From Condylostoma magnum (Eukaryota > Ciliophora > Heterotrichea > Heterotrichida > Condylostomatidae), in assembly GCA_920105805.1 (NCBI GenBank), contig CAKKTI010000057.1, positions 1 through 64,000 on the forward strand: a stretch of DNA of 64,000 bases. Reading direction: 5' to 3'. This document shows, piece after piece, positions 32,403-45,956 of this stretch; position 1 is the stretch's first letter; every line of letters begins with the position of its first letter. Position numbers and translations under genes: made by a program. The notes under the pieces are model-generated. The model did not search any database. It was not told where the DNA came from and was given only the letters and a program-made list of their open reading frames with translations.

Positions 32403-32952
32403 TTAACCTGATTTAATAAAATTTATAAGTGTTCTCCAATAGGAATAGGTTTAATCAAAATCCTCTATGAATTACTGTACTGTGTAGCTAGTATTAGAGT
32501 TGAAATTTCTAAAACATATATTTCTGAGAGCCTAATCAGTACTAGCATCGAAAGTATTTTTAAAAGCTGTTCTTTAAATTGTTTCCTTTTTAAGAGCTGC
32601 TAAATCATTTATAGGAGGAAAAACTGTATATTTGATCTTTGATGATTCCATGATTTCTCAATTTGTTATGGCTTGGACATAGTAGAATTTCTAGGATGAT
32701 GATTTAAGTTTAAAGTGTTTTATGATATGTTTGTTTGTATGTGCGATTAATTTCTGATACACTAGTGATTAAGGAATAGCACTTTTATTAGGATTATTCA
32801 GATTTATTAATTAATCCATTAACTAAGCATAATCACTTATTAAATACCTATTTCAACTATTTCCCCTGTTAGTTTTAAGCTTCCCAATGGATTACAGTAC
32901 AGTCTTTTAAAACTAATACTACATTTTAATAGTACTTACTACCTAAATCCAT
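32403..32952 (-). CDS. Unknown protein, possibly the C-terminal part of RNase H1
   Basis: About 175 aa when a 22-nt intron (32836-32857) is removed. It reads well from MDLGSKYYQNVVLVLKD through NSQ-rich helical segments to YSYWRTLINFIKSG, then TAA 32403-32405. No domain recognised. Its first residues (MDLGSK) are identical to the last residues of RNase H1 because both lie in copies of a 24-bp direct repeat. The frame is also open and in phase across the whole 348 bp between the copies. It may therefore be a separate gene, or a C-terminal extension of RNase H1 that is joined when the intervening segment is absent. Its stop abuts the stop of the convergent gene. Confidence 0.5.
32836..32857 (-). 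other. Candidate 22-nt intron
   Basis: On the minus strand it begins GTTGAAAT and ends TTAATAAG. Removing it joins the frame of MDLGSKYYQ.. to the frame that runs cleanly to the stop at 32403. The donor is not the canonical GTAAG, so confidence is limited. Confidence 0.4.
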
Positions 32953-32959
32953 GGCTCTA
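32936..32959. repeat. 24-bp direct repeat, copy A
   Basis: Identical to 33284-33307 (starts TTACTACC, ends GGCTCTA). It encodes R-A-M-D-L-G-S-K on the minus strand in both copies and in the same phase, 348 bp apart. Confidence 0.95.
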
Positions 32960-33144
32960 AAATTTAATTTGAATAGTATGGAAAAGTTGGACTCCAGACA
33001 GAAATTGATAAAAGTAGTAGAGATACTAATTGCAGCTATCAGATTGGTATCTCTAATACTTTTATTGATTGAAGAGGAAAAAAACGGTTCCAAATCGTTA
33101 TAAAAAGAATATATAGTTGAATTAGGAAAATTTGAAAATCTGAA

Positions 33145-33171
33145 GATTTGAAAGATTTGAAAGATTTGAAA
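33145..33171. repeat. Short tandem repeat, 3 x GATTTGAAA
   Basis: Three exact 9-bp units inside the segment between the two 24-bp direct repeats; related degenerate units flank them on both sides. Confidence 0.85.
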
Positions 33172-33279
33172 ACTAGGAAAATTTAGGAGATATTGGAGAT
33201 ACTGAAGATAAAGATAAATAAGAATAAGAGATACATCGTCTAATTTAAAACATTAGCTTTCTATAATATATTTATTTAT

Positions 33280-33867
33280 TTATTTACTACCTAAATCCAT
33301 GGCTCTATTCGCTAAATCATCAGCAATTTTATTAGACTCCCTTGGAATATGATTAAGTTTAAAATACCTAAACTACTCAATTCTGTCAATGATTAAACTA
33401 TGCAGCTGTATTAGCTACGGCTCTTTGATTTTTCAGTTCTATGCAACTTAACTTACTACTAGCTTTGAGTCCATATGAAAAATAGCATCTTTTCACCTAT
33501 TAGCAAGTGCTAGATTCAGTCCTAATAATAAGGACTAATACTCCGCCTAGTTATTTGTGGTTCCAAAATCTAATGATTAGTATGCCTGCCATTCTAAACT
33601 ATTGTTTTCATTTAACCCCACTGCTCCAATTCCTGCTATACCTGGATTTCCTCTTGATCCTCCATCGCAGTAAACCTTAGGAAACTTTGTGATTTCCAGT
33701 TAAGCATCCTCACTGTTTAAATACTATTAAGCCTTTTTCATACTGGGAAACTTTTTAAATTCTGCTCCTGAGTATCCCTTTACTAGCTCCTGTACTTATT
33801 CTCAGTCATTGTAAATTCCAATCTATCTGCCTTTACGAACTGCGTAAAAGAACTATTTTATTACCAT
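33280..33867 (-). CDS. RNASEH1: Ribonuclease H1 with hybrid-binding domain
   Basis: 195 aa. Residues 4-48 are the RNA:DNA hybrid-binding (HBD) domain: FYAVRKGRQIGIYNDW and AEFKKFPSMKKAQQYL. Residues 65-190 are RNase HI: VYCDGGSRGNPG (first catalytic Asp), NNQAEYQSLLLGL (Glu), FHMDSKLVV (second Asp) and HIPRESNKIADDLANRA (last Asp). It degrades the RNA strand of hybrids (R-loops, mitochondrial primers). It starts 5 bp after the gene upstream and ends ..RAMDLGSK-TAA just inside one copy of a 24-bp direct repeat. The frame stays open past the TAA for another 340 bp up to the next gene, so a longer product is possible. Confidence 0.93.
33284..33307. repeat. 24-bp direct repeat, copy B
   Basis: Identical to 32936-32959. 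This copy is the 3' end of the RNase H1 coding region. Offset 348 bp (116 codons). Confidence 0.95.
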
Positions 33868-38864: not shown

Positions 38865-39753
38865 ATGGAAGACTAAATATATGAATCACTATCGGGAAAC
38901 AGTTCATCGTCAAGTCAAAGAAAGAGAAGTCGATGATCTCTCTTAAGAAACGTTGTTAGAGCCATCCATCTATTCAAAAACCACGAGGCAAGCCCTATAT
39001 ATGATATAGATGAGCTGACAAGTGAGATAAGATCTATTCCTTCAGATGCACATTATAGGAAAAGGAGAAACAGTGATAAACAGTAATCTCCATTTCAAAT
39101 TGCATTAGATGACTTTAGAAGAGAGTAACGCATATTTGAATGCATTGAAAGGGGTAGAAATAGTGACTTAGATTAAATTAAGATAGATGTTGAGGAAGAT
39201 CCTTACAAATATCTAAGAGGTGCTTCACATCCTTTAAGTCTGGTTAATAAACCTTCAAAAGACGGGAAAACACCTTTATATTGTGCATGTGTAAATGGGA
39301 ATTTAGAGGTTGTAAAATATTTTGCTGAAGTGGGAGTAGATCATTTAATTGATAATTATATANNNNNNNNNNNNNNNNNNNNNNNNNNNNNNNNNNNNNN
39401 NNNNNNNNNNNNNNNNNNNNNNNNNNNNNNNNNNNNNNNNNNNNNNNNNNNNNNNNNNNNNNGGGAAAACACCTTTATATTGTGCATGTGTAAATGGGAA
39501 TTTAGAGGTTGTAAAATATTTTGCTGAAGTGGGAGTAGATCATTTAATTGATAATTATATATAAGGAGAAAAAGATACTCCTTTAGAAGCGGCTTGTAGG
39601 TGGGGCTACTTAAATATAGTTGAATTATTGCTATTGAAATTTAAGTGGCCAAAATCAACTTTATAAAAGGCACTTAAAGCTACAAGTCATCCGGATATCT
39701 AGAAATTACTGAAAAGGCAAAAACGTAGAAAGTTTTTCTGTTGCTTTTGTTGA
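38865..39753 (+). CDS. Ankyrin-repeat protein, interrupted by an assembly gap
   Basis: The N-terminus is Ser- and basic-rich. Ankyrin repeats start near residue 133 (DGKTPLYCACVNGNLEVVKYF), followed after the gap by EKDTPLEAACRWGYLNIVELLL and HPDIQKLL, then a basic C-terminus with CCFC (possible palmitoylation). The 100 Ns at 39363-39462 are flanked by two identical 99-bp copies of one ankyrin repeat. As written, the frame is broken across the gap (199 bp, not a multiple of 3). If the two contigs really overlap by those 99 bp, the frame is continuous, giving about 229 aa. Stop TGA 39751-39753. Confidence 0.75.
39264..39362 (+). repeat. 99-bp segment duplicated at 39463-39561 (gap flank)
   Basis: Identical to 39463-39561 and directly adjacent to the N run. 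It most likely represents the same sequence at the ends of two contigs rather than a true tandem repeat. Confidence 0.9.
39363..39462. other. 100-N scaffold gap
   Basis: Exactly 100 Ns, the usual placeholder for an unknown gap size. Confidence 0.99.
39463..39561 (+). repeat. 99-bp segment, second copy after the gap
   Basis: Exact copy of 39264-39362. Confidence 0.9.
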
Positions 39754-45047: not shown

Positions 45048-45956
45048 ATGCCATAATAAGCTTAAAAGTATACAACATAATTTTATAATTGTTCTTATAT
45101 TCTACTTACTAAAAGTTAAGATTCAAATGATTCAGAAATAGAATATTTTGTATAGTTAGCTGAGTATCTTATATAGAATGATAAAAATGTTGTAATAGAG
45201 CCGGAGTTTGTGCATTTCATACCAGAAGGTTGCGTTACTTTAACAAGTAATAATAAAAACTTAATTGAATTAATTATAACAATAGGCAACGATAGCGCTG
45301 TATTATCTGCAATTTCTTTATACAAAAATTAATAGATTCCACCTCTACTAACCTTTTATGTTGAAAAATAAGAACTACATACAACATATCAGATAGATTA
45401 ATATCAAATTATTTTAGAGCCAATATTTAGTGGATAACCTTAATAAATTGAAGTTAAAAAGAGATTTTAATGCACAATGATCGATAAAGAATACAGTAAA
45501 AATTGGGGATTAGCCTCTAATGAGATCTGCATTGATAGAAGAGTAGGAAGTACAATGGTAGATTTAGATATGTTTGTTAATGGCAATTATACAACAAAAG
45601 TTACGGGAGATGGGCTATTAGTAGCGACTCCTACGGGATCAACTGGGTATTAACTATTGGCTGGAGGATCAATTACTCATTACAGAGTTCCAGCAATACT
45701 TATAACTCCAATATGCCCCCACTCTCTATCCTTCAGACCGATTTTGTTACCAGACAACGTTGTTTTAACATTATAAGTTCCAGAATAGGCAAGAGATATC
45801 TCATGAGTCTCTTTAGATAAACACACAAAATTCAAACTAAACAAAGGAGCAAGTGTAGAAATAAAGGTATCAGAATTCCCTGTACCTTATATAAGTCAAA
45901 ATAACAGTTTAGAAGTTTGGATAAGTGGACTGAAGTCAGCATATAAATGGAGTTAA
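45048..45956 (+). CDS. NADK: NAD kinase
   Basis: 302 aa. It phosphorylates NAD+ to NADP+ with ATP. Family signatures: the GGDG-loop region [18 protein letters not shown], the NE/D motif SNEICIDR, the Gly-rich site [23 protein letters not shown], and [17 protein letters not shown]. The usual GGDG is GNDS here; the catalytic Asp is kept but two glycines are changed, which is unusual. The start is the ATG at 45048, overlapping codons that could also extend the kelch frame. It ends at TAA TAG 45954-45959, 14-16 bp from the convergent small gene. Confidence 0.93.

Follow-up and report, generated by a model that had tools for sequence, protein, structure and literature searches.

A possible retroposon-like insertion in the last codons of an RNase H1 gene of Condylostoma magnum

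In Condylostoma magnum, TAA, TAG and TGA all act both as sense codons and as stops (PMC4967479). A similar code is found outside the ciliates in Amoebophrya sp. ex Karlodinium veneficum (PMC12005148), and karyorelicts use TGA as their only stop (PMC11441545). Termination in a code of the Condylostoma kind has been proposed to need an AT-rich 3′ end, and if a stop is recognised by its proximity to the poly(A) tail, insertions at the 3′ end of a gene are risky: they could uncover sense ‘stop’ codons that lie upstream, or strand the real stop codon (PMC4967479).

The target duplications that arise from retroposon insertion vary in length; searches for them have covered 10 to 49 bp, and they are typically no longer than ~20 bp (PMC13295347). 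When Can and Alu SINEs carry a tandem tail, its unit matches the first bases of their target duplication (PMC9599045), and the heterotrich Blepharisma carries LINE sequences in its macronuclear, somatic genome (PMC9942856). Here, we analyze a 64-kb stretch of C. magnum DNA (the window) in which a pair of 24-bp direct repeats encloses a 324-bp segment at the end of an RNase H1 gene, and we weigh a retroposon-like origin of this segment against several alternatives.

The RNase H1 gene and the code in which it is read

The RNase H1 gene occupies 33280..33867 on the minus strand, with its ATG at 33867 and a TAA at 33282-33280, and encodes 195 residues. The product has the architecture of the family, with an N-terminal hybrid-binding domain followed by a catalytic domain of the RNase H fold. 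Its Pfam matches lie above cut-off (Cauli_VI, 1.4e-17; RVT_3, 3.9e-25; RNase_H, 3.8e-07), and the PDB entries 3hst and 1qhk match it at 6.8e-23 and 4.3e-10, respectively; as expected for a eukaryotic gene, IMG/VR contains no relative. TGA is read as Trp at three positions (GIYND-W, NR-W-K and QN-W-KIKEP), the third of which aligns with a Trp of 3hst. At the first, the hybrid-binding domain usually has Trp. In addition, a TAG stands at the conserved Gln of TTNNQAEY.

At the natural C-termini of other conserved genes in the window, the reading frame closes with various combinations of the same codons: TAG-TAA in CLPTM1 (37083), TAA-TAG in an NAD kinase (45954), TGA-TAA in SPT16 (16151) and TAA in DHX16 (49371). 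These stops were placed from protein ends rather than from RNA or ribosome data, those of CLPTM1 and SPT16 by what we take to be the usual C-terminus of each family. Judged from the sequence, TAA, TAG and TGA each appear to have both roles, sense and stop, like the three codons of the Condylostoma-type code 28. The karyorelict code, with TGA as sole stop, was rejected, because the frames of CLPTM1, the NAD kinase and DHX16 close at TAG or TAA with no TGA nearby.

RNase H1 itself most likely ends in ...LANRAMDLGSK-TAA at 33282-33280, directly after the first copy of the repeat described below. We take this TAA as the likely stop because TGA is read as Trp in the gene and the conserved genes stop at TAA, TAG and TGA. 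Homologues of known structure in the PDB have their C-termini no more than a few residues from ...LAN(R/E)AMD, at the first copy, which argues against an extension beyond this point. The TAA follows the preceding stop-like codon of its frame at a distance of 30 codons, similar to the 14–59 codons that separate the stop-like codon from the stop at other gene ends in the window.

Several further observations concern the surroundings of the gene. DHX16, SPT16 and CLPTM1 read uninterrupted, pointing to few or no introns in the window, and introns of 15–16 bp, a class known from heterotrichs, are not enriched there. The NAD kinase (45250-45956, plus strand) has a well-conserved C-terminal domain; its GGDG motif reads GNDS, its NLGSLGFL block is not conserved, and by sequence it is possibly an inactive or diverged paralogue. 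A PDB search with the neighbouring upstream frame gave no match. Farther along, the 99 bp at 39264-39362 recur without change at 39463-39561 across a run of 100 N. These are overlapping contigs that were scaffolded unmerged, so the gap is probably not a real one.

A direct-repeat pair and the segment between its copies

The repeat unit (TTACTACCTAAATCCATGGCTCTA) is found at 33284..33307, where it lies within the last RNase H1 codons (N-RAMDLGSK, minus strand), and again, without a single difference, at 32936..32959, exactly 348 bp downstream in the direction of the gene. An earlier note on this DNA had called the pair identical and had read RAMDLGSK from both copies in the same frame, and we confirm its coordinates, the identity and the shared frame, which is on the minus strand. 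The pair is also far beyond chance: in shuffled sequence, the number of matches expected for the 24 bp is 0 with up to three mismatches, and when the surrounding 10 kb were shuffled 40 times, the longest direct repeat within 400 bp reached 16 bp. If one mismatch is allowed, the match grows to 27 bp, outside of which the flanks are unrelated. Since the outer flanks show no relationship to the insert ends, the copies are not remnants of a longer, decayed duplication. Only one exact repeat in the window is longer than 24 bp, namely the 99-bp duplicate around the 100-N gap, and the sole other one above 18 bp is a minisatellite inside the insert. The 24-bp unit includes four TA dinucleotides, so each end of the insert adjoins a direct repeat that contains TA. 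The 24-mer is absent from IMG/VR, as expected for a eukaryote.

Composition and codon usage set apart the 324 bp between the copies (32960..33283, plus strand), which have a GC content of 24.7%. Purines make up 60% of the plus strand of this segment, versus 41% in RNase H1 and 47% in the downstream DNA. At one end, a (TTTA)n tail (33265..33283, plus strand) adjoins only the repeat copy that starts at 33284, and the tail unit is the same as the first bases of that copy (TTTA/TTTAC). The (TTTA)4 16-mer TTTATTTATTTATTTA (33271-33286, reaching three bases into the copy) occurs once in the 64 kb and never in 100 shuffles. The body contains an imperfect palindrome with 28-nt arms and a 12-nt spacer (33003..33070, plus strand), which was folded both as DNA and as RNA and forms a strong hairpin, the only one of such size in the window. 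Its RNA folding z-score is −6.7 for the plus strand and −5.1 for the minus strand; the hairpin is nearly perfect, and its G-U pairs favour RNA of the plus strand. A 9-bp minisatellite of 5–7 copies (GAAAGATTT) lies at 33126..33184 on the plus strand, and is the tandem repeat that had been reported between the copies.

The identity of the insert was sought among known proteins, RNAs and mobile elements. The segment, hairpin included, has no Pfam or Rfam match, and Pfam recognised no reverse transcriptase or endonuclease in it. A tRNA, snRNA or other known RNA was rejected, as nothing matched; searches for a tRNA, an Rfam family and the B-box consensus were negative, and no pol III promoter or head of the tRNA, 5S or 7SL type was found. 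The window holds no second copy of the insert. Target duplications of DNA transposons are short and of fixed length. Terminal inverted repeats were not detected (best 9/16 over all boundary positions; shuffle P = 0.44), and their lack led us to reject a MITE and makes a DNA-transposon or MITE-like internal eliminated sequence (IES) less likely.

Codon usage likewise distinguishes the insert from the gene that it adjoins. On the RNase H1 strand, the best 80 codons of the insert score −8.5 to −12.2, versus +14.6 for 100 RNase H1 codons, and its other frames do not rise above shuffles. A small gene on either strand was rejected, with P values against shuffles of 0.19 for 50 codons and 0.73 for 80. 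The earlier note had described the 348 bp as open when TAA and TAG are read as Gln, and there is indeed no TGA between the copies, but the same holds for 22% of 116-codon windows sampled on both strands of the 64 kb. Many sequences look open in this way because such a reading leaves only TGA to close a frame, and we caution that in genomes of this kind frames opened by it mean little. Nor would collapse to a single copy join RNase H1 to a downstream protein of ~170 residues, as had been suggested; it gives ...RAMDLGSK-Y-Y-TAA, with the ‘170-aa protein’ in another frame, and that frame has no Pfam or PDB match and no significant codon-usage signal. A spliced-out intron was also considered as an explanation of the frame and rejected: candidate GT...AG pairs are present, but the large conserved genes are uninterrupted and no 15-bp class is enriched.

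Possible origins of the insert

The reading that we prefer, and to which we give an even chance, is that a non-coding segment of 324 bp was inserted antisense into the last RNase H1 codons in the manner of a retroposon, with a 24-bp duplication of the target. Read along the plus strand, the order of target copy, body, (TTTA)n tail and target copy is the layout left by target-primed reverse transcription. A short RNA could have been reverse-transcribed at the target by a retrotransposase of the non-LTR (LINE) type, and duplication of 24 bp of target upon insertion would have restored RAMDLGSK at the C-terminus of RNase H1. On the opposite strand the tail reads (TAAA)n, which would bring a TAA stop together with an AT-rich 3′ end. 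RNase H1 could thus have escaped harm, because the duplication restores its C-terminus and (TAAA)n supplies both stop and AT-rich end. Before the insertion, the empty site would have read ...RAMDLGSKYY-TAA. We infer insertion as the direction of the event, an RNA route and termination at 33280. Two hallmarks of retroposons are present at the locus, an exact target duplication and a tail of microsatellite type that runs up to the 3′ target copy. Also in favour are the agreement of the tail unit with the first bases of the adjoining copy, as in Can and Alu SINEs, the lack of terminal inverted repeats, the change of purine content at both flanks, the LINE sequences in the Blepharisma macronuclear genome and the coincidence of the RNase H1 end with that of its homologues. 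We describe the insert as working like a retroposon and do not file it as a SINE, because no tRNA, Rfam or B-box match was obtained. In the earlier note, the locus was an element accompanied by direct repeats and lying in frame; the locus does look like an insertion with direct-repeat duplication, but the in-frame, coding part of that view is unsupported.

Several observations speak against a retroposon-like origin. The 64-kb window has no second copy of the insert, which matches no Rfam family, tRNA or B-box-like promoter and contains no recognised reverse transcriptase or endonuclease, and its 24-bp duplication exceeds the typical length of no more than 20 bp (PMC13295347). In addition, the RNase H1 frame contains a run of about 105 codons without TAA, TAG or TGA (33254-32929, minus strand), a length reached in only 0.2% of dinucleotide shuffles. 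Coding DNA in the window uses all three codons freely, and the minisatellite accounts for part of the run. The alternative that draws on this run is a C-terminal extension, in which the TAA codons at 33282 and 33255 would be read through and translation would stop at the TAA at 32928-32926, giving a protein of 313 residues with RAMDLGSK twice. Codes of this type deplete stop-like codons before true stops (PMC4967479), and at least 105 codons before 32928 are free of them (shuffle P = 0.002). We nevertheless regard such an extension as quite improbable: the codon usage is as poor as that of non-coding DNA, the peptide is a low-complexity mixture of F, I, L and S, homologues end at the first copy and the open run consists in part of minisatellite. 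An assembly artefact is a very improbable source of the repeat pair. The contig does contain an unresolved join, with 99 bp on both sides of a 100-N gap (39264-39561), but that overlap is much longer than 24 bp, the repeat locus itself has no gap or N, and a missed overlap does not yield a 24-bp repeat around 324 bp of unique sequence.

A lesser possibility is a templated duplication, in which repair or template switching would have placed a copy of 24 bp from the RNase H1 end in a spacer 348 bp away. The spacer would then be old intergenic DNA, with nothing mobile involved. A single common kind of mutation would suffice, no repeat family was found in the 64-kb window, and the hairpin and minisatellite suggest a spacer prone to slippage and fold-back. 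This account, however, leaves unexplained both why the unique (TTTA)4 tail adjoins the repeat and why composition changes at the repeats. Programmed or polymorphic excision, which we consider improbable, would make the segment a retained IES or one of two chromosome versions, removable either through recombination of the two 24-bp copies or at one of their internal TA dinucleotides. Most IES boundaries in Blepharisma contain TA (PMC9942856), and so does the repeat; in Loxodes, indels flanked by direct repeats are frequent and were found to be allelic rather than programmed (PMC11441545). Yet 24 bp far exceeds the usual TA, TAT or TATA boundary and the insert has no terminal inverted repeats. 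Moreover, the assembled version contains the segment, and RNase H1 is intact with it in place, so removal is not needed.

Stop-codon context and relation to known systems

The repeat pair is real and non-random, and probably marks an ordinary small insertion with a target-site duplication. Apart from the stop context, the event is of an ordinary kind, and the main interest of the insertion lies in its position beside a context-dependent stop. More tentatively, and with considerable doubt, we suggest that a short RNA-derived insertion rebuilt the end of the protein from duplicated target and tail, providing at once a new context-dependent stop and an AT-rich 3′ end. If this were true, a mobile element could create a termination context in one step in a genome without a dedicated stop codon. 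The RNase H1 locus offers a concrete candidate for such an event, in which an insertion bearing its own stop and AT-rich end keeps the gene working.

Among known systems, the TA-bound IESs of Blepharisma resemble the insert in having TA-containing direct repeats at both ends and AT-rich content, but their repeats measure 2–4 bp rather than 24 bp, and here terminal inverted repeats are lacking and the gene is intact. Non-LTR retroposons and SINEs share more features with the insert, including a long exact target duplication, a microsatellite-like tail at the 3′ copy, a tail unit that matches the first bases of the duplication, the lack of terminal inverted repeats and a short non-coding body. 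The insert differs from them in that its body corresponds to no known sequence, a pol III promoter is lacking and the 64-kb window holds no other copies, and its 24-bp duplication is somewhat longer than typical. The code in which the locus is read agrees with the nuclear code of C. magnum (NCBI table 28), in which TAA and TAG within genes specify Gln, TGA specifies Trp, and all three codons stand at gene ends, often in tandem.
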